Positions 3,650 through 22,642 of a stretch of DNA of 62,258 bases are shown piece by piece. Both the position numbers and the translations under genes were made by a program. The notes under the pieces are model-generated. The model was not told the DNA's origin and did not search any database. It was given only the letters and a program-made list of their open reading frames with translations. Numbering within the stretch: the stretch's first letter is position 1; each line of letters starts with the position of its first letter. This DNA comes from Ignavibacteriota bacterium (lineage in GTDB: Bacteria; Bacteroidota; Ignavibacteria; UBA10030; UBA6906), in assembly GCA_003158475.1 (NCBI GenBank), contig PMJR01000066.1, positions 1 to 62,258 of the forward strand, written 5' to 3'.

Positions 3650-4864
3650 CTATTTCATGAGAACCAGCCTCTTCATCGAGACAAAAGATCCAGTTTCCAG
3701 ACGGTAGAAGTATACTCCGCTGGAGAAATTGATCGGATTGAACGGCACGGTGTAGCTGCCGGCTTCCTGATGACCGTTCACGAGTGTGGCAACATCCTGA
3801 CCCAGCAAATTGTAGACCTTGAGGGAAACCTGAGCAGCGTTCTCAAGACTGTATTGAATCCTCGTGGATGGATTGAATGGATTTGGATAGTTCTGTTCAA
3901 GTGAGAAGTGTTGAATCGGTGAACTCTTGTTGCCGAGAGAGTTCACAACGCTCGGCTTAACCACAGTATTGGCATCCAATGTGACCGCGGTCTGTGCCAG
4001 CGCCCTACCGTCCAGCGTTGCGCCTGTAGTCATCACAATCGCTGTTTGACACAACATGACTCCCTTCATAGCAGCCGCCTTTCCAAGAGTAACCTGGCCG
4101 GCGACCTGCCAGAAGATATTGGACGTCCTCGCACCGCCGATGAGGGTAACCATAGCACCGTCGGCCAATACTAAATTCTGCGCTATCTGGAATATCCAGA
4201 TATCGTTTGCGGTCCCAGAAATGGTGACACCACCAGCAGATACCAGGACATCCGTGCCCCATTTGTATAGACCGGGAATGAGAGTTTGTCCAGTGACATC
4301 TCCGGCGTACAATTCAGTATAGCCGGGAAGTGATCGTCCAGCTGCATCAGTGTACGCAGTTTGCATGTCGCCTATTGCCGCCGTCATTTTGGCTGGACTT
4401 GGGACAGTATAGTCGGAAGCATATATTTTGCCAGTGACTAAGGACGATATCGAGAATGTGCCCGAGGCATCCAGTATAAGTCCAAATCCGGTTATGCCAG
4501 TCGCCTTGATTGGACTAACTCCAATATCACCGGTAATTTTGGTGACCCCTGTAGCAGAAACACCCGTTTGGGTGAGAATAACAAAATCGCCGGCCGTCGC
4601 AAGATTCACCGGTTTGGGCGACTGAGAAACAGCGATGGAAGTCAGCATCAAAGCAACTGCGAGTACTGCGCCGAGGGAGCGCGTCCACCTGTCTGGACTA
4701 CTTGCTGTACGCATCTTCATAAACCCTCCATTTGTCCGCATACGATTCCCCAATCTCTTAACTTGGATCGGATTGTCTTCCTTAAATGATTTCTCGAGCT
4801 GACACGAGTTCTGCTCGATCTTTCTTTGTTGTGCAAGGATTTCTGCATTTGAATCAACCGGCAA
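3650..4864 (-). CDS. Ice-binding-like (DUF3494) secreted protein with T9SS C-terminal sorting domain
   Basis: 'VNLATAGDFVILTQTGVSATGVTKITGDIGVSP', 'GLYKWGTDVLVSAGGVTISGTANDIWIFQIAQNL', 'NIFWQVAGQVTLGKAAAMKGVMLCQTAIVMTTGATLDGRALAQTAVTLDANTV'; C-terminus 'LEQNYPNPFNPSTRIQYSLE...GVYFYRLETGSFVSMKRLVLMK'. The true start may be an internal Met. Confidence 0.85.
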   Translation of the reverse strand: MPVDSNAEILAQQRKIEQNSCQLEKSFKEDNPIQVKRLGNRMRTNGGFMKMRTASSPDRWTRSLGAVLAVALMLTSIAVSQSPKPVNLATAGDFVILTQTGVSATGVTKITGDIGVSPIKATGITGFGLILDASGTFSISSLVTGKIYASDYTVPSPAKMTAAIGDMQTAYTDAAGRSLPGYTELYAGDVTGQTLIPGLYKWGTDVLVSAGGVTISGTANDIWIFQIAQNLVLADGAMVTLIGGARTSNIFWQVAGQVTLGKAAAMKGVMLCQTAIVMTTGATLDGRALAQTAVTLDANTVVKPSVVNSLGNKSSPIQHFSLEQNYPNPFNPSTRIQYSLENAAQVSLKVYNLLGQDVATLVNGHQEAGSYTVPFNPINFSSGVYFYRLETGSFVSMKRLVLMK

Positions 4865-8697: not shown

Positions 8698-8997
8698 TCA
8701 CAGCCGTTCGACGCGTTTGGCGACAATAAGTCCTCCTTTAATGACTTCTTTGATGTGGGGGAGCACGCCCCGGACCTTTTCTTCATCGTCCACAAAAAGG
8801 ATCATGATGGGTCCCTCGTCCACAGTGCCGATCCCCTTGGTGTGATGGAGATGATGTTTCTGGCCGTACCCCATCACCGCGGGGAAGACCGAAGCGCCCA
8901 TGATCCCGTGATGCATGAGATACCGCATGATGTACTCGTCCATCCGTTTGTCCTGATGCAGGTCGTCTTCGTCGAGGAACATCGTGACTTCAAGCAT
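8698..8997 (-). CDS. DUF190 / PII-like protein
   Basis: [52 protein letters not shown]...[35 protein letters not shown]; start at 8997 overlaps the TGA of the RND gene at 8990. Confidence 0.8.
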
Positions 8998-11900
8998 GAA
9001 CGTCTCCTTTTCCGTTGCGGAAGAGAATAAGGTAGAGAGCCGGGAGCGTGACAACGGTGAGGAACAACGCCGATGTCAATCCTCCCACAATCACCGTGGC
9101 GAGGGGACGTTGTACGTCCGATCCGATGCCCGTCGCACGCGCGGCCGGAATCAGCCCCAGGAGGGCGAGGAACATCGTCATCAGGTTCGGCCGGAGCTGG
9201 ATGATGGCTGCCTTCCGAACGGCATCTGCGACCGTGCATCCCTCGTCGTCGATCAGCCGGTTCGTCCTGGAGACGAACAACACGCCGGCGATGATCGACA
9301 CCCCGAAGAGGGATATGAACCCGACTCCGGCCGACACATTGAAGCTGTAACCCCGCAGCATCAGTGCGACGATTCCGCCCGCCAGGGCGAGCGGGATCCC
9401 GGCCATGGCGATGGCCACGTGCCGTAGGTTCCTGTAGAGCAGGAAAAGGATCAGGAAAATCATCCCGATGGTGAGCGGGATGACCACCGCGAGTCGCGCC
9501 GCAGCGCGGGAGAGGTTTTCGAACTGCCCCCCCCAGTCGAACGTGTATCCCTTCGGAAGCGTGACGGCCTGTGCCACCCGGTCCCTGGCCTCCGCAACGA
9601 AGCTCCCCTGATCGCGGCCGCGTATGTTCGTCCGGACCGATATCTGCCGCCTGCCATCCTCACGTTGTATGATCGTGGGCCCGTCGACCAGCCTGATTTC
9701 CGCCAGTTGCGACATCGCGGCGCGGGCCCCGGAAGGGGTCACCACAGTCATCCTCTTCACCGCGTCCACAGAGCTACGGAATTCAGACGAATACCGGACC
9801 ACGATGTCGAACCGGCGCTCGCCGTCGTAGAATTTGCTGACCGGCCTTCCCCCGACCGCCGCCTCGATCATCTTCTGGATATCGCTGACATTGACGCCGA
9901 ACCTTGCCGCCGCGGTCCTGTCGATTTCCACGGAGAGCTGCGCCTGGTTCCCTTCCTGCTCGATCCCCGATTCACTTGCGCCGGGGACGGACCGAATGAT
10001 CGCGAGGACCGAGTCCGCCTCCCGCCTCATCAGGTCGAGGTCCTCGCCGCTGATCAGGACCGCGAGATCGGCGACGCTCCCGGTGACCGCTTCGGTGACA
10101 TTGTCGAGGATCGGCTGTGAAAAGGAGAAGAGCGCACCCGGGATCGCCTGCTCGAGTTCGGACTTTATCCGCAGGAGGAGTTCCTTCTTGCTCACCGCCT
10201 TCGTCCAGCGGGAATAGTCTTCCAGTCCTACAAAGATCTCCAGCCGGTTTGGTCCGTACGGATCGGTTCCGTCGTCGTTGCGCCCGAGCTGGGTGAGGAC
10301 CACGTTGACCTGGGGATGGGCGCTGATCAGTTTCCTGATCACGGGGGTGTACTTGCCGGCCTCGCTGAGCGAAATTCCCACAGGGAAGAAGCAGCGTATG
10401 TTGAAGGATCCCTCGTCAAGTTCCGGGAGAAACTCGGTGCCGATGGAATGCGCCCCCGTCAACACGACCACGATCACGATGGCGGTCGCAGCCAGGACCG
10501 TGATCCAGGGGCGCCTGAGCACACGGCTGATCGTTCGTTCGTACCGCTGCTCGATCCAGGCGTACGCCGGGTTGTGCCACTCGATGTGCACCGGGCCTGC
10601 AGATTCGAAATGGCGACGGTAGAACATCGTCATCAGGACAGGGATCACCGTCAGCGCAAGCAACAGCGACCCGGTGATCGCGAACGCCAGAGTGTAGGCC
10701 ATGGGGGAGAAGAGCTTCCCCTCGACGCGCTGGAAGGAGAATATCGGCAGGTAGGCGAGTATGATAATGGCGATTGAAAAGAATATCTCCCGGCCTACCT
10801 CCTGCGCCGACGTCAGTGTGAACCGGATGATCCCCTCCCCCCGGTCGGCCGGGGTGGCGTCGCGGTAGCGTCGCATGATGTTCTCCACCATGACGACCGC
10901 CCCGTCGACGATGATCCCGAAGTCGATCGCGCCCAGGGAGAGGAGATTGGCGGGGATCCCCGTCAGGCGCATCATCGAGAATGCGAAAAGCATCGACACG
11001 GGGATCGTTGTGGCGACCACGAGCGCCGACCGCACGCTTCCGATGAAGAAGATCAGGACGATCAGGACGATGGAGATCCCCTCGAAGAGCGTTCCGGAGA
11101 CCGTGTCGATCGTGTAATCGACGAGCTGGCTCCGGTCATAGGTGATGCGGAGCGAAACGCCCGCCGGAAGATCGTTATCGTTGATCTCGCGCACCTTCTT
11201 CTTCAGAGCCTCGACAACGGCGGAGGGGTTTTCGCCCCTCCGCATGGCGACAAGCCCCTGGATCCCCGAAGAAACATCCTCGATCGTACCATCACTCCCG
11301 CGGATCGCATATCCCAGGGCCCCGGTAGGAGGGAGAGGGAATTCCTCCACGGTGCCGATATTCCTGATGAACACGGGGACGCCGTGCTGGACGGTGAGGA
11401 CGATGTTCTCGATGTCCTCCCTGTTCCTTATCGCGCCGATGCTCCTGACGGCGAATGCCTGCCCGCCCCTCTGGATGATATTCCCGCCGGTGTTCAGGTT
11501 GTTCGAGGTGACGGCATCGATGACGTTTTGGATCGTAATGTTGTACTGCTGAAGCCTGTCGGGGGAGGTTATGACGTGATACTGCTTCACCAGCCCCCCG
11601 AAATTGATAACATCGGCGACGCCCGGAACCTGAAGGAGTCTGGGGATGATGACCCAGTCCTGGAGCGTCCGGAGTTCCATCGGTGTGTGTTCATCGGTCG
11701 ATTCAATCACATAGCGGAAAATCTCTCCGACGGGGCCGGTCAACGGTCCGAGTGCGGGATTGACGCCGTCCGGGAGGACGGCATCGCCGAGTTTTTCAAG
11801 CACCCGCTGGCGTGCGAAATAGTCGTCGGTACCGTCTTCGAATGTAAGCTGAATGACCGAGAGGCCGAATATCGTTTTGGACCGGCGCGTGAGCACGCGG

Positions 11901-12130
11901 GGGACCGAGTTCAGAGCTCGTTCCAGCGGCTCGGTGATCTGCTGTTCGACTTCCGTCGCGGCGCGGCCGGGGAACAGCGTGATAACGGTAACCTGGGTGT
12001 CTCCGACATCGGGATATGCCTCCTTCTGAAGCTGGATCCAGGAGAAGACGCCGGTCGCGGCGATCGCCACGACGAGCCCGATCGTCGCGAGGCGCTGGTT
12101 GAGGGCAAAGGTGAGGAGCTGACGTATCAT
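8990..12130 (-). CDS. czcA: Heavy-metal efflux RND transporter, CzcA/CusA family
   Basis: 1046 aa with HME-RND motif '[22 protein letters not shown]', N-terminal '[35 protein letters not shown]', duplicated TM domains. Confidence 0.93.
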
Positions 12131-12150
12131 TGGCTATTCCCGCCGGTTAT

Positions 12151-12227
12151 TCCCGCCTAAAATCGGCGGGATTGTTACTCCCGCCTGAAATCAGCGTGAT
12201 TATTACTCCCGCCTGAATTCAGCGGGA
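12151..12227. repeat. Three tandem 28-bp-period palindromic units (TCCCGCC-TGAAAT-CAGCGGGA type) between czcA and czcB
   Basis: tcccgcctaaaatcggcggga 12151-12171; tcccgcctgaaatcagcgtga 12179-12199; tcccgcctgaattcagcggga 12207-12227; spacer a(t/c)t(g/a)ttac; partial unit at ~12136. Confidence 0.85.
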
Positions 12228-12230
12228 CTC

Positions 12231-13241
12231 TTAGTACCCGAAACTCAGGCCCTTGAGGAGCATGGCTCCGTCGGTGACCACCCGTTCGCCGTCCGAGAGA
12301 CCCTTCAGCACGATCACGTCCCCCGCCCCGGAGGAACCTATGGTGATCTGGCGGCGCACGAACTCCGAGTCATTGAGTTGTATGAAGGCGTAGTCCGCCC
12401 CCTCGACGGTCACCACGCCTGATGCGGGCAAGAGCACGATCCCGCTTATCGGATCTCCGAAATCGACGCGGGCGAACATTCCCGGGAGGATCCGGCCCCT
12501 GGGATTGGGCATGGAGACACGCACCTTGACCGTGCGGGTGACAGGATCGACAACCTCGCCGATTGCGTCCGCCCGCCCCCGGAACTTCCCGTCGGGGAAT
12601 GACGCGAGCTGTATCGGGACATCTTCCCCTCTCTGCACCTCGTTGAGTTGCGATTCGGGGACGTCGCACATGAGCCATGCCGTCCCCGGGGGGATTGTGT
12701 CAAACTCCGGGGGGTTATACCCCAGGCCCCGAAGCTTCGATTCGCTCTCCGCCATCGCCGCCTTGGCGGTCGCCGCCTCGTTCTCGGCTTCGTTCAGATC
12801 TTTCGCCGTCGCGGCCTGGTTCTGAAACATGTCCTTGATCCTTGAGAGATTCTTGGAGGCGCGCGCGACGTTCGCGCTCGCCTGGCGGTACTGGGAATAA
12901 AGCGACGTGACGTCCGGCGAGTCGAACATCACGATCCTGTCGTTCGAGCTCAGTCCGGGCACAATGCTCGCGACGACCCGGGCGGGGGCGATGACGGGAA
13001 TGGTGGCGGTCCGTTTTTCCACCATCGCGGATGTGATCCGGCTGAGTCCGGGACTCCCCGACGGGAACCTGATACTTGTCCCGCCCTCGTTCACTTCCGC
13101 GCGCCGCGAGGTTTGCTGGTGGCGAGAGGCGGCCATGTCGTCGCCGTTGCAACCGCACATGAGTGCCGCGCCTGCCAGGATGCACGGGAGGGTCTGCATA
13201 AGAGTGAAGAGACGAGTGGCGTTCATGGTGATGTCCTTCAA
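12231..13241 (-). CDS. czcB: RND membrane fusion protein, CzcB/CusB family (putative lipoprotein)
   Basis: 'LAGAALMCGCNGDD' lipobox-like; 'PRGRILPGMFARVDFG...LLPASGVVTVEGADYAFIQLNDSEFVRRQITIGSSGAGDVIVLKGLSDGERVVTDGAMLLKG'. Confidence 0.9.
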   Translation of the reverse strand: MKDITMNATRLFTLMQTLPCILAGAALMCGCNGDDMAASRHQQTSRRAEVNEGGTSIRFPSGSPGLSRITSAMVEKRTATIPVIAPARVVASIVPGLSSNDRIVMFDSPDVTSLYSQYRQASANVARASKNLSRIKDMFQNQAATAKDLNEAENEAATAKAAMAESESKLRGLGYNPPEFDTIPPGTAWLMCDVPESQLNEVQRGEDVPIQLASFPDGKFRGRADAIGEVVDPVTRTVKVRVSMPNPRGRILPGMFARVDFGDPISGIVLLPASGVVTVEGADYAFIQLNDSEFVRRQITIGSSGAGDVIVLKGLSDGERVVTDGAMLLKGLSFGY

Positions 13242-14515
13242 GGCTGGAAAAGGTCTGTTCCTGTGACGTAGTTGAGCATTTCCATCGCGTCGGCACGGTC
13301 GTTCCCGAGCTGGTTCATCTGGAGCATGCTCGTGCGGTACGACTCGATGAAATCCGTAAACTCGATGACGCTCATGTTCCTTTTCTGGTAATTCGCAATC
13401 ATGCCGTCCACGAGCTCGCGGTACTGGAGCGGGAACCTCCGGTCGAACGAGCGGTACAGGCGTTCCAGGTCCGAAGCTCTTCGCAGGGCGGCGGCCACCT
13501 CCTCCAGCACCGACGCACGGTAATTGTCGTGCACCGCCCTGTCCGCCTCCAGCGTCCTGGCGGATACATCGATGTTCCCCTGGTTCCTGTTGAACAAGGG
13601 GAGATCGATCGAGAACGTGAGGGCATAGTAATCGGGGATGTAGCTGCCGGCACGGGACCAGAGGCCGCCTACCGTCAGGTCGGGCGTCGCCAGGGATTTC
13701 TGGTACTCCAGGTTGGCTTCCTCCCGCAGCACCGTGCCGTTCGCCTTCCTGAGGTCCGGCCGGTTCGCGAGTGCCGCAGCGGCGACGTCGGCGTACTGCA
13801 AAGAGTCCGGCCTGAACATTTCAAGCCGTTCGGCGTTGATTTTGGGGATGTAGATTTTCCGCACGCCCGCAGTGTCGCGGAGAAGCACCCGCAGGCTTGA
13901 CTCTATATCTGCGACCTTCCCGAGGAGGCCGAGACGCTCGTTCTGAAGCGAAAAGAGGAGCGATTTCAGCCGGAGGAGCTCCGCCAGGAGTATGGACCGT
14001 CTTTCGTACACGCCTTCGGTGACTGTCACGGTCTTCGTCAGCGTGGCGATGCTTTCGTCGTAGAAGCCGAGGGACTGGTGAAGGTAGTAGAGATCGTACA
14101 GATCGGTCCGCAGCTTGAGTTTGAGGGCCCGCATGACGTCATAGAAATCGTTGCCTGCATTCTCCGCATCGATTTCGGCGAGGCGGACCTGCTTGCCGCG
14201 TTTCCCCGCCAGGAGGAGGAGCTGCTGGATCTGGACCCCCGAATTCCCGCTGGCGGAAACGTCGAACCACCGCCCCGTATACTGGTTATGGATGTTCTGT
14301 TCGACGGAGAGGTTCGGGTTGTTCCAGAGCCCCGCCTGCGAGACGGCAGCCCGGGCGGCATCGATGTTGAACCTCGCGGCGACGAGCTGCAGGTTCCTCT
14401 GGAGGAACTGCTGTTCCGCGTCCTGAACGGCAATACGGATCGTGTCCGCCTGAGAGAATGCTCCCCGCGGTGCCAGCATGCACATGACCCACATCAGGGG
14501 AAGAATGCGGCGCAT
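13238..14515 (-). CDS. czcC: TolC-family outer membrane protein, CzcC/CusC-like
   Basis: MRRILPLMWVMCMLAPRGAFSQADTIRIAVQDAEQQFLQRNLQLVAARFNIDAARAAVSQAGLWNNPNLSVEQNI...; ATGA-type overlap with czcB. Confidence 0.9.
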   Translation of the reverse strand: MRRILPLMWVMCMLAPRGAFSQADTIRIAVQDAEQQFLQRNLQLVAARFNIDAARAAVSQAGLWNNPNLSVEQNIHNQYTGRWFDVSASGNSGVQIQQLLLLAGKRGKQVRLAEIDAENAGNDFYDVMRALKLKLRTDLYDLYYLHQSLGFYDESIATLTKTVTVTEGVYERRSILLAELLRLKSLLFSLQNERLGLLGKVADIESSLRVLLRDTAGVRKIYIPKINAERLEMFRPDSLQYADVAAAALANRPDLRKANGTVLREEANLEYQKSLATPDLTVGGLWSRAGSYIPDYYALTFSIDLPLFNRNQGNIDVSARTLEADRAVHDNYRASVLEEVAAALRRASDLERLYRSFDRRFPLQYRELVDGMIANYQKRNMSVIEFTDFIESYRTSMLQMNQLGNDRADAMEMLNYVTGTDLFQP

Positions 14516-14665
14516 AGAATCAATCTCTTTGTGGTTAATGACAACTCGCTGCAGTGTGCGCGTACGGTCCGCGCGGTAGGCACCCATGTCATGAGGGGAG
14601 GCATGAGGGCGTGACCGCTCAGTGGACCGGCACGTGCACAGGATATCGCGGGGGAGGGGAGCGGA

Positions 14666-15154: not shown

Positions 15155-15195
15155 TGAAAAATGACTGTTCCGCCTGCGGGACGGAAGGGAGTTGA

Positions 15196-15254: not shown

Positions 15255-16517
15255 ATGAGACTGGAAAAATACTCTCTCGGCATCGGAGACAGGTTCGGTC
15301 TTCAGGGTACGCACCAGCTACGGGCATTCCGGATGGCGGCGGAGAAAGGGCTGCAGATCTCCCCCGTCTGGAACAAATCAAACCGCGAGCACGCGATCAT
15401 CGGCACGCATCCCTCCGATACGCGCGCGGAGGCGGACGAGGCGGTCAGAGATCTCGGGTGGCGGGGAGCGTACTTCGTTGATGCGGACCATATCGGGGCT
15501 GCGACGGTGGAGAGGTTCATCGACTCGAGCGACTTTTTTACGATCGATGTCGCAGAGTTCATCGGGACGCCCGCCTCGGGGGATGCCGTCAGGACATTTC
15601 TCGGCGCCATGGCGCCCCTTACCGGAGCGATAGTCGTCCCCGGGCTTGACGAGCCGATGAATGTCGATGAGTCGCTCCTCCGCGCAGTTGCCGCCAAATA
15701 CCTTAACGCCGTGAAGGAGGCCGGGCGCGTCTACCGCATGATACTCTCGGGACGGCGCGGGAAGGAGTTCATCCCGGAGGTGTCTCTCGATGAGTCGGAC
15801 GCTCCGCAGTCGCCGGAAGAGCTTCTTTTCATTCTGGGGGCCATCGGCGCGGAGGGGATACCCGTCCGGACGATTGCCCCGAAATTCACAGGTTCATTTC
15901 TGAAGGGGATCGATTACGTCGGGGACAGGGGGGCGTTCGCCCGCGAGTTCGAACAGGACCTCGCAGTCGTTGCATTTGCGGCCGGATCCTTTCATCTTCC
16001 GGGGGACCTCAAGCTCTCGGTCCACACCGGAAGCGACAAGTTCTCCCTCTACCCCCTGATGCACAGGGCGATCAGGAGATTTGACGCCGGTCTCCATCTG
16101 AAGACCGCCGGGACGACGTGGTTGGAAGAGGTGATAGGGCTCGCGGAGGCGGGGGGGGAAGGCCTCCGGGCTGCGAAGGAAATCTATACGCTCTCGCTCG
16201 GCAGGTTCGACGAACTTTGCGGTCCCTATCTCCAGGTCATCAGCATCGACAGGTCGAAGCTCCCTTCTCCGGCGGAAGTGGCAACATGGTCGGGGGACGT
16301 CTTTGCCGGTGCGCTGCGTCACGACCCGGTTCACCCGGGGTTCAACCCGAACTTCCGCCAGCTCATCCATGTCGGTTACAAGGTTGCGGCGGAAATGGGC
16401 CACCGGTTCACAGACCTCCTGCGACACAACGCAGTTCCGGTCGGGAGAAACGTCACGTACAATCTCTACCACCGTCACATCGTGCCGCTGTTCCTGGGAG
16501 CGGGCAACCCGGATTGA
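15255..16517 (+). CDS. uxaE: Tagaturonate/fructuronate epimerase (UxaE family)
   Basis: MRLEKYSLGIGDRFGLQGTHQLRAFRMAAEKGLQISPVWNKSNREHAIIGTHPSDTRAEADEAV...YFVDADHI...; collinear with uxaC. Confidence 0.85.
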   Translation: MRLEKYSLGIGDRFGLQGTHQLRAFRMAAEKGLQISPVWNKSNREHAIIGTHPSDTRAEADEAVRDLGWRGAYFVDADHIGAATVERFIDSSDFFTIDVAEFIGTPASGDAVRTFLGAMAPLTGAIVVPGLDEPMNVDESLLRAVAAKYLNAVKEAGRVYRMILSGRRGKEFIPEVSLDESDAPQSPEELLFILGAIGAEGIPVRTIAPKFTGSFLKGIDYVGDRGAFAREFEQDLAVVAFAAGSFHLPGDLKLSVHTGSDKFSLYPLMHRAIRRFDAGLHLKTAGTTWLEEVIGLAEAGGEGLRAAKEIYTLSLGRFDELCGPYLQVISIDRSKLPSPAEVATWSGDVFAGALRHDPVHPGFNPNFRQLIHVGYKVAAEMGHRFTDLLRHNAVPVGRNVTYNLYHRHIVPLFLGAGNPD

Positions 16518-16519
16518 GA

Positions 16520-17989
16520 ATGGGAACAACATTCATCAATGATGATTTCCTCCTCGGCACGAGGTATGCCAGGGAGCTCTATCATGCGTATGCCGCCACG
16601 CTGCCGGTGATCGACTACCACTCCCATCTTCCCCCGGGTGAGATCTCCGGGGACAGGCGGTTCGATACGATGACGCAGATCTGGCTCTCGGGGGACCACT
16701 ACAAGTGGCGGGCGATGAGGACGTGCGGCGTCGATGAGAGATTCATCACCGGGAACGGCTCCGACTGGGAAAAATTCGAAAAATGGGCGGAGACCGTCCC
16801 CAGGACACTCCGTAACCCGCTGTACCACTGGACGCACCTCGAACTTCGCCGGCCTTTCGGTGTGGAAGACAGGCTCCTCGATCCCTCGACGGCGAAAGGG
16901 ATCTGGGACGAGTGCAATGCGAAACTTGCATCGGCCGGGTTCTCCGTCAGGGGAATACTCGCCCGGATGAACGTCGAGGTCGTCTGCACTGTCGATGATC
17001 CTGTCGACACGCTCGAATATCATGCGCTCATGATGGGTGATCAATCGCTCAATGTGCAGGTGCTCCCCACATTCCGCCCGGACAGGGGCCTGGCGGTGGA
17101 AAACCCCGCGTCATTCATCGCCTATTGCAGGGAGCTCACGGCGTCGTCGGGAACTGAGATATCTTCCTATCCGGACTTCATTGCAGCGCTGAAGTCGCGG
17201 CATGACTTCTTCCACAGCCGGGGGTGCAGGCTCTCGGACCACGGGATCGAGACCGCGTACGCAGCGGAGTACTCCCCGGTGGGCGTAGAGACCGCCTTCA
17301 AGCGGCTTCTCCGGGGTGCGAGTCTCGATCCCGTGTCCCTTCTCGGTCTCAAGTCCTCCATCCTCCACGACCTGGCGGTGATGGACTGGGAAAAGGGATG
17401 GGTGCAGCAGTACCATATCGGTGCGCTGAGGAACACGAATTCCCGGATGATGCGGACGCTGGGTCCGGACACGGGGTTCGACTCCATCGGCGATTCCGAG
17501 GTTGCCCGACCGCTTGCGCGCTTCCTCGATTCACTCGACAGGGACGACCATCTTGCACGGACGGTCCTGTTCAACTTGAATCCCCGGGACAACGAGGTGT
17601 TCGCCACCATGGCAGGAAATTTCCAGGACGGCTCCGTCCCCGGAAAGATCCAGTACGGCCCCGCCTGGTGGTTCCTGGACCAGTCCAACGGCATGACGGG
17701 ACAGATCGAGGCTCTTTCCCATATGGGAGTCCTGAGCCAGTTCATTGGCATGGTGACTGATTCACGGAGCTTCCTCTCGTACCCGCGTCATGAGTATTTC
17801 CGCCGACTCCTCTGCGGGCTCCTCGGGGATGACATGGCCAACGGGTTGCTCCCCGGCGACGTCGGTCTGGTCGGGAACATGGTGCGGGACATCTGCTACT
17901 TTAATGCGAAGCGCTATTTCAGATTTCCGGACCGCCCCCGATCGCCGGCGGTTCCCTCACCCCCCTCCCCCACGAGGTCCCGGGCTTGA
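16520..17989 (+). CDS. uxaC: Glucuronate isomerase (uronate isomerase)
   Basis: MGTTFINDDFLLGTRYARELYHAYAATLPVIDYHSHLPPGEISGDRRFDTMTQIWLSGDHYKWRAMRTCGV...; ATG at 16520 just after the uxaE stop. Confidence 0.95.
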   Translation: MGTTFINDDFLLGTRYARELYHAYAATLPVIDYHSHLPPGEISGDRRFDTMTQIWLSGDHYKWRAMRTCGVDERFITGNGSDWEKFEKWAETVPRTLRNPLYHWTHLELRRPFGVEDRLLDPSTAKGIWDECNAKLASAGFSVRGILARMNVEVVCTVDDPVDTLEYHALMMGDQSLNVQVLPTFRPDRGLAVENPASFIAYCRELTASSGTEISSYPDFIAALKSRHDFFHSRGCRLSDHGIETAYAAEYSPVGVETAFKRLLRGASLDPVSLLGLKSSILHDLAVMDWEKGWVQQYHIGALRNTNSRMMRTLGPDTGFDSIGDSEVARPLARFLDSLDRDDHLARTVLFNLNPRDNEVFATMAGNFQDGSVPGKIQYGPAWWFLDQSNGMTGQIEALSHMGVLSQFIGMVTDSRSFLSYPRHEYFRRLLCGLLGDDMANGLLPGDVGLVGNMVRDICYFNAKRYFRFPDRPRSPAVPSPPSPTRSRA

Positions 17990-18087
17990 AAACCTACGGA
18001 GTGAAAAACCGATGACTGCACTGTTCGATCTCGGGGGGAAAACCGGGAATTCTCCCGCAGGGATCCAGTGAATATGCAAGAACTGAA

Positions 18088-19392
18088 GTGAATACGACGA
18101 CGGTTGAACGCGCCGGCGCCCGTGGAGAAGTGGCGGGGACGGTGGGCCGGTACAGGTGGGTAATCTGCGCACTCCTTTTCTTCGCGACAACGATCAACTA
18201 CATCGACCGCCAGGCGATCGGAATACTGGCGCCTTTGCTCCAGAAGGAGATCGGCTGGAACGAGATAGAGTACGGATATATCGTGACCGCGTTCCAGGCG
18301 GCATATGCGCTCGGGCTTCTTGTTGCCGGAAGGCTGATCGACAGGTACGGCACGAAAATCGGGTACTCCGTCGCAATCGTACTCTGGAGTCTGGCCGCCA
18401 TGGCGCATGCCGTCACGCGCTCCGCGGCGGGGTTCGGAGCCGCGCGGTTTGCGCTGGGGCTCGGTGAGTCGGCGAATTTTCCGGCGGCGGTCAAGGCAAT
18501 CGCCGAATGGTTCCCGAAGAGAGAGCGGGCACTGGCGACGGGGGTCTTCAACTCGGGGGCGAACATTGGTGCCGTCGTTGCTCCCCTGACTGTCCCTTTT
18601 CTCGCTGTCACGTATGGCTGGCAGGCGGCGTTCATCGTGACGGGGCTCCTGGGATTTATCTGGCTCATTTTCTGGATCCTCGTCTACGAACGGCCCGAAA
18701 CACACAGGAAGCTCTCCCCGGCCGAACTCGGATATATCAGGAGCGATCCCCCCGATCCCGCTTCCGGGAAAATCCCGTGGGCGGGCCTCCTCAGGTACAG
18801 GCAGACCTGGGCGTTCGTGGCCGGGAAATTCCTCACCGATCCGATATGGTGGTTCTATCTCTACTGGCTCCCGAAGTTCTTGAACAAAACCTACGGACTC
18901 ACGCTCACTGACCTCGGAGTGCCCCTTGTCGTCATTTATACGATGACGAGCATCGGGAGCATCGGGGGGGGGTGGCTCTCTTCCAGGTTCATCGCGCAGG
19001 GCTGGCCGGTCGGCCGGGCCAGGAAGACCGTCATGCTCATCTGTGCTCTCCTGATCGTGCCTATCGTCTCCGCCGCGAGCGTTGCCGACCTCTGGGTCGC
19101 CGTCGCTCTGATCGGCGTTGCCGCCGCCGCACATCAGGGATGGTCGGCCAACCTTTTCACGACGGCCTCCGACATGTTCCCCAGGGATGCGGTCGGCTCG
19201 GTGGTGGGACTGGGGGGAATGGCGGGTGCAGTCGGAGGGATGCTCCTTGCGACGTCCGCGGGGTTCCTGCTGGAATGGACCGGGAGTTATATGACGCTCT
19301 TCATTATTTCAGGGAGCGTGTACCTTGTCGCGCTGTTCATCATCCATAGGCTGGTCCCGACTCTCGAGCCGGTAAAGATCGAGGCAGGGTGA
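18088..19392 (+). CDS. MFS transporter, hexuronate (ExuT/ACS family) type
   Basis: GTG start; 'FFATTINYIDRQAIGILAPLLQKEIGWNEIEYGYIVTAFQAAYALGLLVAGRLIDRYGTKIGY...GESANFPAAVKAIAEWFPKRERALATGVFNSGANIGAVVAP'. Confidence 0.9.
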   Translation: MNTTTVERAGARGEVAGTVGRYRWVICALLFFATTINYIDRQAIGILAPLLQKEIGWNEIEYGYIVTAFQAAYALGLLVAGRLIDRYGTKIGYSVAIVLWSLAAMAHAVTRSAAGFGAARFALGLGESANFPAAVKAIAEWFPKRERALATGVFNSGANIGAVVAPLTVPFLAVTYGWQAAFIVTGLLGFIWLIFWILVYERPETHRKLSPAELGYIRSDPPDPASGKIPWAGLLRYRQTWAFVAGKFLTDPIWWFYLYWLPKFLNKTYGLTLTDLGVPLVVIYTMTSIGSIGGGWLSSRFIAQGWPVGRARKTVMLICALLIVPIVSAASVADLWVAVALIGVAAAAHQGWSANLFTTASDMFPRDAVGSVVGLGGMAGAVGGMLLATSAGFLLEWTGSYMTLFIISGSVYLVALFIIHRLVPTLEPVKIEAG

Positions 19393-19396
19393 GACA

Positions 19397-20230
19397 ATGA
19401 ACATCAAGGAACTCGTCAGACTGTACGACTTCACCGGCAAATCGGTGATGGTGACCGGCGGGGCCGGCGTCCTGGCCGGGGAGATGGCGTGCGCGCTCTT
19501 CGGCTGTAATGCGCAAATCGCGATCGTGTGCCGGGACCCCTCGCACGCCGCCCCGCTCATGAAGCGGATCGAGCCGGTGGGTGACCGTGCCATCGTCGTC
19601 TTCGGCGACGTCCTCAAGGGGGAGACCATGCAGATCGCCGCCGATCAGGTGATACGTGCGTTCGGGAAGATCGACATACTCATCAACGCGGCGGGAGGGA
19701 ACGACCCCCGCGCTACGTCGGGGGGCGGGAACAGTTTTTTCGACATTCCGGCAGAGGCGCTGAAATTCGTATCGGACCTGAACCTCCTCGGGACAATGAT
19801 ACCATCCCAGATCGTGGGGAAACATATGGCCGGGAGGGGAGAAGGGGTCATACTGAACGTTTCCTCGATGAACGCCTTCCGCCCCCTGACGAGGATCGCG
19901 GCATACTCCGCTGCGAAGGCTGCCGTGAGCAACTTCACGCAATGGCTCGCGGTGTACATGGCGCAGGAGGTGTCGCCGAACATACGCGTGAACGCGATCG
20001 CGCCCGGATTCTTCCTCACGAATCAGAACCGGTACCTCCTGATCGACCGGGAGACGGGGAAACACACCGACCGGGGAAAAAAGATCCTCGATCACACTCC
20101 CGCAGGACGATTCGGGGAACCGGAAGATCTTCTGGGCACAGTGCTCTGGCTCCTCTCCCCGGCTTCGAAGTTCGTCACGGGGATCGTGGTGCCTGTCGAC
20201 GGCGGGTTTTCAGCTTTCGGTGGCGTCTAA
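19397..20230 (+). CDS. SDR-family oxidoreductase, probable D-mannonate (fructuronate) dehydrogenase
   Basis: 'GKSVMVTGGAGVLAGEMACALFG', 'INAAGGNDPRATSG', 'YSAAKAAVSNFTQWLAVYMA', 'IRVNAIAPGFFLTNQNRYLL', 'VPVDGGFSAFGGV'; context in hexuronate cluster. Confidence 0.85.
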   Translation: MNIKELVRLYDFTGKSVMVTGGAGVLAGEMACALFGCNAQIAIVCRDPSHAAPLMKRIEPVGDRAIVVFGDVLKGETMQIAADQVIRAFGKIDILINAAGGNDPRATSGGGNSFFDIPAEALKFVSDLNLLGTMIPSQIVGKHMAGRGEGVILNVSSMNAFRPLTRIAAYSAAKAAVSNFTQWLAVYMAQEVSPNIRVNAIAPGFFLTNQNRYLLIDRETGKHTDRGKKILDHTPAGRFGEPEDLLGTVLWLLSPASKFVTGIVVPVDGGFSAFGGV

Positions 20231-20242
20231 AGGAGCGTGGCG

Positions 20243-21502
20243 ATGTCCGGCATAACGGGGAAGGGTTCACTTGACGCGCCGCTCGACGTGCCGGCAATCG
20301 AGGAGATCTGTGCGGATGCCCTGTCCGCTCTCGATCTCCGGGGGAAGCGAGTCCTGGTTCTCATCCCCGACCATACGCGACACGCACCGATCGGGTTGTT
20401 TTTCCACGCCCTCTACCGGATACTGGGCCGGAGCGTGAAGTGCCTGGATTACCTCGTCGCCACCGGGACGCACCGGGCGATGGAGCCGGAGAGGCTCTAC
20501 CGGCACATCGGCATTACGCCGGAGGAGCACCGGAGGGAATTCACAAACGTAAGCCTCCTCGCACATGAGCACGATAACCCCGCCGCGTTGAAAAGCATCG
20601 GCACGATCCCCGCCTCGGAGATCCGGACGCTCACTGGCGGTCTGTTCGTCCAGGATATCCCCGTGAGCATCAACAGGGCGGTCCTGGAGTACGACCATGT
20701 CCTCATCGTCAGCCCTGTGGTCCCCCACGAGGCGATGGGATTTGCCGGGGGGAACAAATACTTCTTTCCCGGCGTGGGGGGGGTCGACATCATCGAGACG
20801 TTCCATTGGCTGGCTGCCGTCATCACCAATCCGGCCGTCAACGGGGTGAAGGACACCGCCACGCGGCGTGTCATCGACAGGGCCGCACAGTTCCTCCAGG
20901 TCCCCCGCACATGCATTGCCTTTGCGGTGGACGACCGTGACCGGCTGGCATGCCTGTTTGTCGGCAGTCCGGAAGAGGCATGGTCCCGTGCGGCCGATTA
21001 CTCGGCGAAGCTCCACATCAAGTACATCGGAAGCCCGGTCGACCGGGTCCTGGGTGTGACGCCTGATATCTACGAAGAACTATGGGTCGGCGGAAAGGCG
21101 ATGTACAAACTGGAACCGGTCGTGGCCGACGGGGGTGAACTGATCATCTACGGTCCGCAGATCCGTGAGATCTCGTTCGTCCACGGCCGCGCAATCAGGC
21201 GGGTCGGCTACCACGTGAGGGATTATTTTCTCTCTCAGTGGGAGAAGTTCTGCGATGAGCCGAAACTGATACTGGCGCATTCCACAAACGTCCGCGGCGT
21301 GGGGTCGTTCGAACAGGGGGTCGAGCATCCACGCATCTCCGTGACACTGGCGACGGCGATTCCGGAAGAACTCTGCAGGGCCGTGAACCTCGGATTCCGG
21401 GATCCCCGGTCGATCGATCTGGACGCCTGGCGCCGGCATCCGGGGCGCGGCGACCTTGTCATTGAAAATGCGGGACAGGTCCTCTACAGGCTGCAGGAGT
21501 AG
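20243..21502 (+). CDS. LarA-family (lactate racemase-like, nickel-pincer) racemase/epimerase
   Basis: 'LIPDHTRHAPI', 'YLVATGTHRAM', 'VVPHEAMGFAGGNKYFFPGVGGVDIIETFHWLA'; H-x9-K-x15-H spacing matches H174/K184/H200 of LarA as I recall it; AGGAG RBS 7 nt before ATG 20243. Confidence 0.85.
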   Translation: MSGITGKGSLDAPLDVPAIEEICADALSALDLRGKRVLVLIPDHTRHAPIGLFFHALYRILGRSVKCLDYLVATGTHRAMEPERLYRHIGITPEEHRREFTNVSLLAHEHDNPAALKSIGTIPASEIRTLTGGLFVQDIPVSINRAVLEYDHVLIVSPVVPHEAMGFAGGNKYFFPGVGGVDIIETFHWLAAVITNPAVNGVKDTATRRVIDRAAQFLQVPRTCIAFAVDDRDRLACLFVGSPEEAWSRAADYSAKLHIKYIGSPVDRVLGVTPDIYEELWVGGKAMYKLEPVVADGGELIIYGPQIREISFVHGRAIRRVGYHVRDYFLSQWEKFCDEPKLILAHSTNVRGVGSFEQGVEHPRISVTLATAIPEELCRAVNLGFRDPRSIDLDAWRRHPGRGDLVIENAGQVLYRLQE

Positions 21503-21559
21503 GAACCGGATGACGGAGAATATGCTGCGCCATCATCGGGAATCAGAAAGGAAGAAGAG

Positions 21560-22642
21560 ATGGACAATGTGCTCAACATCCGTCCCCGGGGGGCTCTCGA
21601 TCTGGTCTCCCTGGGAGCGCTGGTACACCGGCTTGATCCCGGGATCATCCCCTTCCGCAAGGCGGCTGAATGCCAGATCCACGTCAGCGGAGGTGAATAC
21701 AACGTCGCTGCAAATCTCTCCGACTGCTTCCGCATGAACACGGCGATTGCCACCGCGATGGTGGAATATCCCATCGGCGACCTGGCGGCGGAGCGCGTGA
21801 AAGCGATGGGGGTGAAGCCGTTCTACCGGTTCTTCAAGCACAACGGTGTCAACGGTCCGAATATCGCCGCGGTCTACAGCGACCGGGGGCAGGGTATTCG
21901 TGCTCCGGTGGTTTTCTATAACCGGTGCAACGAAGCTGCAGCGCAGCTTCGTCCGGGGGATTTTGACTGGGAGACCATCTTCTCGGGGGGGGTCCGGTGG
22001 TTCCACAGCGGGGGGATATTCGCTTCTCTCTCGGCGACAACGGGGGAGCTGATCATCGAGGGGATGAAGGCGGCGCGGAAGGCGGGGGCTGTCGTAAGTT
22101 TCGATCTCAATTTCAGGGAGAAGCTCTGGAGCATCTGGGGGGGGGAAAAAAAGGCGGCGGACGTCGTGGAGCGGATCGTCGGGAACGTCGATGTCCTCGT
22201 CGGGAATGAGGAAGACCTCCAGAAGGGACTCGGGATCCCCGGCCCCAAAGCGAATGCGAAATCGAAACTCGACCCGGAGATTTTTCTCGGCATGATGCGG
22301 GACCTGGCGGCACGGCATCCGAATGTCAGGGTGGCGGCGACGACGCTCCGGGAGGTGCATTCGGCAAACCGGCACAGCTGGAGCGCCGTGGCATGGGTCA
22401 ATGGCAAAGCCTTCAATGCGCCGGCATGCGATCTCGAAGTGCTCGACCGCGTGGGGGGGGGTGACGGGTTTGCGAGCGGATTCATCTACGGCCTTCTCTC
22501 AGGCGAGCCACCTGAGGAGGCGGTGAAACTCGGCTGGGCGCACGGGGCTCTCTTGACGACGTTTCCCGGAGATACCACGATGGCGACTCTTGAGCAGGTG
22601 CGGTCTTTCGCCGGCGGCGGCTCGGCACGCATACAGCGATAA
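21560..22642 (+). CDS. kdgK: PfkB-family sugar kinase, probable 2-keto-3-deoxygluconate kinase
   Basis: 'VVSFDLNFREKLW', 'VDVLVGNEEDLQKGLGI', 'VGGGDGFASGFIYGLL'; end of hexuronate cluster. Confidence 0.85.
   Translation: MDNVLNIRPRGALDLVSLGALVHRLDPGIIPFRKAAECQIHVSGGEYNVAANLSDCFRMNTAIATAMVEYPIGDLAAERVKAMGVKPFYRFFKHNGVNGPNIAAVYSDRGQGIRAPVVFYNRCNEAAAQLRPGDFDWETIFSGGVRWFHSGGIFASLSATTGELIIEGMKAARKAGAVVSFDLNFREKLWSIWGGEKKAADVVERIVGNVDVLVGNEEDLQKGLGIPGPKANAKSKLDPEIFLGMMRDLAARHPNVRVAATTLREVHSANRHSWSAVAWVNGKAFNAPACDLEVLDRVGGGDGFASGFIYGLLSGEPPEEAVKLGWAHGALLTTFPGDTTMATLEQVRSFAGGGSARIQR

Follow-up and report, generated by a model that had tools for sequence, protein, structure and literature searches.

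On contig 30 of a draft metagenome-assembled genome (MAG) of the Ignavibacteria (3.75 Mb in 153 contigs, 97.85% complete), here called the window and meaning the whole stretch of DNA analysed, 62,258 nucleotides long, there is a hexuronate operon of six intact, consecutive genes, all on the plus strand at 15255-22642. These are uxaE, uxaC, a gene for a transporter of the major facilitator superfamily (MFS), a short-chain dehydrogenase/reductase (SDR), a LarA homologue and a kinase of the PfkB family, of the type that we call PfkB-A (Table 1). The operon is real: the intergenic gaps measure 2, 98, 4, 6 and 57 bp in gene order, and domain scans found every gene that a preliminary description of this DNA, made from the letters alone, had listed there. 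The reading frame of uxaE is open from a TTG at 15192, with an ATG at 15255, and the MFS transporter reaches 250 bits against TIGR00893, a galactonate transporter group, below the cut-off of 395. Among named organisms, the genome has its nearest relatives in the Ignavibacteriae MAGs of isolates fen_1259 and fen_1277.

Table 1. The hexuronate operon: assigned products, window positions, strand and basis of each assignment
Gene or product	Position	Strand	Basis
uxaE, tagaturonate/fructuronate epimerase	15255..16517	+	PF16257 161 bits, E=4e-47
uxaC, glucuronate/galacturonate isomerase	16520..17989	+	PF02614 647 bits, E=2e-194; NF002794 584 bits, above cut-off 387
MFS transporter, probable hexuronate importer	18088..19392	+	PF07690; top NCBIfam TIGR00893
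SDR, probable fructuronate reductase (D-mannonate oxidoreductase)	19397..20230	+	NF006132 345 bits, above cut-off 281 (NCBIfam)
LarA homologue, predicted nickel-dependent D-mannonate/D-gluconate 2-epimerase (GntE-like)	20237..21502	+	Lar_N PF09861 E=6e-21; 4NAR/GntE2 E=3e-69
PfkB-A kinase, predicted gluconokinase	21560..22642	+	PF00294; genome co-occurrence with Gnd; adjoins Gnd in relatives

We consider it likely that hexuronates go in this bacterium from mannonate to gluconate, then to 6-phosphogluconate and ribulose-5-phosphate, as their sole route here, and that the window kinase serves this route as a gluconokinase. UxaC would convert galacturonate and glucuronate into tagaturonate and fructuronate, UxaE would turn the tagaturonate into fructuronate, and the SDR would reduce fructuronate to D-mannonate, a role that had already been proposed for it and that its score above the NF006132 cut-off bears out. 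The LarA homologue would then invert D-mannonate at C2 to give D-gluconate, which PfkB-A would phosphorylate to 6-phosphogluconate, to be decarboxylated to ribulose-5-phosphate by Gnd, whose gene lies on contig 139. Identities, residues, cofactor genes, absences and co-occurrences were all computed from sequence; what the LarA homologue and the kinase act on is our inference.

It is the set of missing genes that makes this route seem obligatory. The absence of mannonate dehydratase (UxuA) and of UxaA and UxaB from the window, as first described, extends to the whole genome, where UxuA was found neither by profile search nor with a close same-genus query, and where UxaA and UxaB were not found either. 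The genes of the canonical isomerase (Ashwell) pathway, namely UxuA, UxaA/UxaB and 2-keto-3-deoxy-6-phosphogluconate (KDPG) aldolase, were thus all unfound in the genome. In each of three same-genus genomes, UxuA, KduI, a second kinase type that we call PfkB-B, and the KDPG aldolase Eda are all present (the UxuA of G002 being a fragment), and none of the four was found here, in genome searches of BLAST-level sensitivity in which some queries, including the one for these four, were several proteins joined end to end. The present genome retains the epimerase, PfkB-A and Gnd. Between the UxaC and MFS genes of G002 lie kduD and kduI, and in G001, G002 and G003 pfkB-B follows gnd and a PdxB-like gene; at both places these genes are missing here. 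Joint loss of the whole 2-keto-3-deoxygluconate (KDG) branch is the better reading, rather than four independent assembly gaps, and because these four genes are missing the epimerase route seems to be the only one left in this genome.

Full-length candidates for a dehydratase were also considered and rejected. Only one ILVD/EDD protein, IlvD itself, is found in the genome as a possible gluconate dehydratase or Edd, and among three full-length enolase-superfamily matches over the cut-off, two are MenC-like and the third has DgcA and the Ala-Glu epimerase (dipeptide epimerase) as its top models, below cut-off. The remaining match of this superfamily over the cut-off is a truncated gene at the end of contig 10, described below.

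The sequence of the LarA homologue supports the prediction that it interconverts mannonate and gluconate by epimerisation at C2 and so provides a way around UxuA. Its closest solved structure, over 400 residues, is 4NAR, which is GntE2 of T. maritima, an enzyme that epimerises D-mannonate (PMC7583248). The two proteins are 36% identical, and GntE2 shares 27-29% identity with the group-18 relatives. Besides the Lar_N domain, the window protein has D45, R48, H110, H164, K174, H190 and K287, compared with D72, R75, H108, H174, K184, H200 and K298 of the LarA reference, with H110 pairing with LarA H108 in the phmmer alignment, and the catalytic and nickel-pincer nucleotide (NPN) binding residues listed in PMC7583248 are complete. 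The H-x9-K-x15-H pattern noted earlier is indeed there as H164, K174 and H190, and it is invariant across 18 aligned orthologues. Two features of the GntE enzymes are also present, the substrate-loop Glu after the catalytic His (E165, invariant) and a small residue before the catalytic Lys (G286, the same as in GntE2); the alignment was poor in a third region (alpha14). In a tree that did not include GntE1, and in which GntE2 and LarA have very long branches, GntE2 falls beside group 18 and the window family forms a clade of its own, with homologues in Myxococcota, Chloroflexota, Planctomycetota, Verrucomicrobiota, Hydrogenedentota, Armatimonadota and others. As a member of NF052594 (NPN_18 hexonate epimerase) the window protein was rejected, since its 166 bits fall short of the cut-off of 500.

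The cofactor genes are present on separate contigs (LarB, 290 bits; LarE, 324 bits; LarC, E=8.5e-132), and since the window gene is also the sole Lar_N gene of the genome, the NPN cofactor is presumably made for its product. The preliminary description had named a uxuA elsewhere in the genome, or a lack of larB, larC and larE, as what would speak against its epimerase idea; genome searches found no such uxuA and all three of the larB, larC and larE genes.

The window kinase is probably an unrecognised gluconokinase, not the KDG kinase (KdgK) that annotation would make of it. The KdgK label that it had received at first is doubtful: PfkB-A scores 117, 65 and 28 bits against KDG-kinase cut-offs of 440, 400 and 400, and its type is the further one from the solved KDG kinase of T. 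maritima (2AFB), at 160 bits compared with 239 for PfkB-B. These are the two main kinase types in the relatives (PfkB-A, the window type, more than 70% identical; PfkB-B, about 43%); they can share one genome, and PfkB-A differs from PfkB-B at about 36 group-specific positions, including N121 in place of D and A20 in place of E. Across 120 genomes, which are related, so that the counts are not independent and it is the discordant genomes that inform, PfkB-A and full-length Gnd occur together in 47 (kinase only in 2, Gnd only in 9, neither in 62), and PfkB-B or a third type, C, occurs with Eda in 60 (kinase only in 2, Eda only in 9, neither in 49). PfkB-A is present in all 7 genomes that have a LarA homologue and Gnd without Eda, and in just 1 of the 23 that have Eda and lack full-length Gnd, that one being 55% complete. 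It also adjoins Gnd in eight loci (L038, L041, L044, L047, L048, L058, L102 and L105).

In one locus (L183), the slot after the SDR and epimerase genes holds a bona fide GntK-type gluconokinase, over its cut-off, and in other loci FGGY kinases adjoin the epimerase. We infer that PfkB-A phosphorylates gluconate. PfkB-A belongs to neither of the known gluconokinase families (GntK/SKI and FGGY), being a PfkB protein, and what is proposed is thus a gluconokinase-like action and not membership of those families; no report of a PfkB-family gluconokinase was found in the open-licence literature. No GntK-type gluconokinase was found in this genome, and its FGGY proteins, in a search that was not exhaustive for this family, were rejected as known gluconokinases, resembling xylulokinase and rhamnulokinase, both below those cut-offs. 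In four loci of other phyla without PfkB-A (L147, L149, L166 and L180), the gene downstream of the LarA homologue, read by eye, is phosphofructokinase-like, with a VVVAQSGGPTPVINN start.

LarA homologues themselves co-occur with Gnd in the same 120 genomes (both in 52, LarA homologue only in 4, Gnd only in 4, neither in 60), and among 80 loci of the homologue from many phyla, Gnd lies nearby in 25 and UxuA in none. Group 18, a further LarA group in the same order (648 bits, over the cut-off; L058:8498-9766, L109, L110, L111, L112, L113 and L114), has almost the same gene neighbours, Gnd and PfkB kinases among them, and often occurs where the genome lacks the window type. A PdxB-like dehydrogenase, scoring 392 and 426 bits, slightly below the cut-off of 434, is encoded next to gnd (G000 contig 139; L097:8363-9517) and also at L047:6119-7279; of the 31 loci that carry it, 26 have it no more than 300 bp away from Gnd or a LarA homologue. 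Given that 4-phosphoerythronate, the substrate of PdxB, inhibits 6-phosphogluconate dehydrogenase (PMC6449344), the PdxB-like protein may protect Gnd, or it may alternatively reduce a 2-keto acid leaked by the epimerase.

Several observations weigh against the proposed route. In 13 of 26 relatives the genome has both UxuA and the epimerase, so that the shunt would usually add to UxuA and not replace it. The link of kinase to Gnd is not a strict rule either, since four genomes carry the epimerase and Gnd without PfkB-A (G021, G031, G017 and G029), two of them, the near-complete G021 and G031, with only PfkB-B, and in L123, L129, L130 and L132 the epimerase has PfkB-B as its neighbouring kinase. 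In this genome, a xylulokinase-like FGGY gene (C10), below its cut-off, could phosphorylate gluconate. The genome is moreover a draft of the completeness given above, the search for KDPG aldolase (Eda, PF01081), which found none in the genome, did not cover KDG aldolases of the dihydrodipicolinate synthase (DHDPS) type, and the end of contig 10 carries a shortened, galactonate-dehydratase-like fragment of the enolase superfamily. As to this last stretch (contig 10, 52400-57853; L207), its final 5.4 kb have 40-47% GC, compared with 52-59% in the rest of the stretch read and 60% in the window, and contain a glycoside-hydrolase-like open reading frame together with the truncated sugar-acid-dehydratase-like gene; they are possibly foreign or misjoined.

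The main live rival is that phosphorylation comes before epimerisation, with PfkB-A as a mannonate kinase, the LarA homologue as a 6-phosphomannonate 2-epimerase, and 6-phosphogluconate passing to Gnd as before. This has a precedent in the galacturonate pathway of Lactobacillus suebicus, whose mannonate also ends as 6-phosphogluconate for Gnd, but whose extracts gave 6-phosphomannonate followed by 6-phosphogluconate and had no epimerising action on free mannonate, with a phosphoketolase afterwards and with genes that are not known (PMC6978723); moreover, the KM of GntE2 for mannonate is high (17, in the units of the source table; PMC7583248). We nevertheless hold this order to be unlikely, given that free D-mannonate is epimerised by GntE2 and two other GntE enzymes, and that the over-cut-off GntK after the epimerase in L183 implies a free gluconate intermediate there.

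The preliminary description had the same epimerase working on free mannonate, with a dehydratase elsewhere turning gluconate into KDG, and the window kinase acting as KdgK; KDPG aldolase would then complete the path. The epimerase half of that interpretation stands as a prediction, on the GntE2-like residues, on larB, larC and larE and on the missing UxuA; the half that leads through KDG to KdgK does not. PfkB-A does sit in the KDG-kinase branch of the PfkB proteins, and the dehydratase-like piece at the end of contig 10 would suit this path, but the genome has no ILVD/EDD protein other than IlvD, none of its full-length enolase-superfamily proteins is a sugar-acid dehydratase, KDPG aldolase was not found, and PfkB-A goes with Gnd, the partner of both epimerase and kinase, as PfkB-B goes with Eda; we judge this path very unlikely. 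Least probable to us is that the substrate of the LarA homologue is some other hexonate or uronate (for instance an altronate, glucarate or a uronate) and that mannonate is used by a UxuA whose gene fell into a gap of the assembly. The separate clade of the window family, at just 36% identity to GntE2, would fit this, as would GntE1, with its poor KM for mannonate and its uronic-acid gene context (PMC7583248); against it, a mannonate-type SDR lies directly upstream of the LarA homologue, Gnd and PfkB-A recur as its partners, and UxuA, KduI, PfkB-B and Eda are jointly missing.

The mannonate/gluconate epimerase shunt itself is not new in kind. For the breakdown of hexuronates in T. maritima it was proposed by Rodionova in 2012 (as cited in PMC6978723 and PMC7583248), and the activity of GntE2 on D-mannonate was demonstrated in 2020 (PMC7583248). 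The T. maritima network (GntE2/LarAH20) has, as here, UxaC, UxaE, a mannonate reductase and a LarA-type D-mannonate/D-gluconate 2-epimerase, with a gluconate kinase proposed to feed the pentose phosphate pathway. In contrast, T. maritima has UxuA and KDPG aldolase, as the control rows of the same searches returned, and this genome has neither; the epimerase here belongs to another clade and the operon kinase to the PfkB family. That kinase lies in the same PfkB branch as 2AFB, with a full-length alignment. The putative hexonate epimerases of NF052594, or LarAH group 18, share with the window protein the superfamily, the catalytic residues and, in relatives, the adjacency to Gnd, but they are about 30% identical to it and have Asn where it has Gly before the catalytic Lys. 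What seems new is a genome with the shunt as its apparently sole, obligatory route, the reassignment of the kinase, and the spread over many phyla with Gnd and without UxuA nearby.

Upstream of the hexuronate operon, and divergent from it, the minus strand of the window encodes an RND-type (resistance-nodulation-division) efflux set at 8990-14587, with inner-membrane pump, adaptor and outer-membrane factor recognised by eye from their translations. The minus strand also encodes, at 3650-4864, an ice-binding-like protein (PF11999) carrying a Por secretion tail.

Among the carbon sources that plants provide, the hexuronates of pectin are a major one, and models of their breakdown take a path through UxuA and KDG for granted. 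We are evenly divided on the broader claim that PfkB-A is the first PfkB-family gluconokinase and that, with the distinct LarA clade and Gnd, it makes up a UxuA-independent route across many phyla, aided in some lineages by a PdxB-like enzyme that would clear 4-phosphoerythronate or re-reduce leaked 2-keto acid. In summary, this soil bacterium seems to degrade pectin sugar acids by epimerising mannonate to gluconate with a nickel-cofactor enzyme and passing the product on to the pentose phosphate pathway. If the proposed route is true, the KDG-kinase annotation would be wrong for a large group of kinases in uncultured bacteria, the products from hexuronate would be pentose phosphate, CO2 and NADPH and no longer pyruvate and triose phosphate, and growth on the sugar acids of pectin would require the nickel cofactor.

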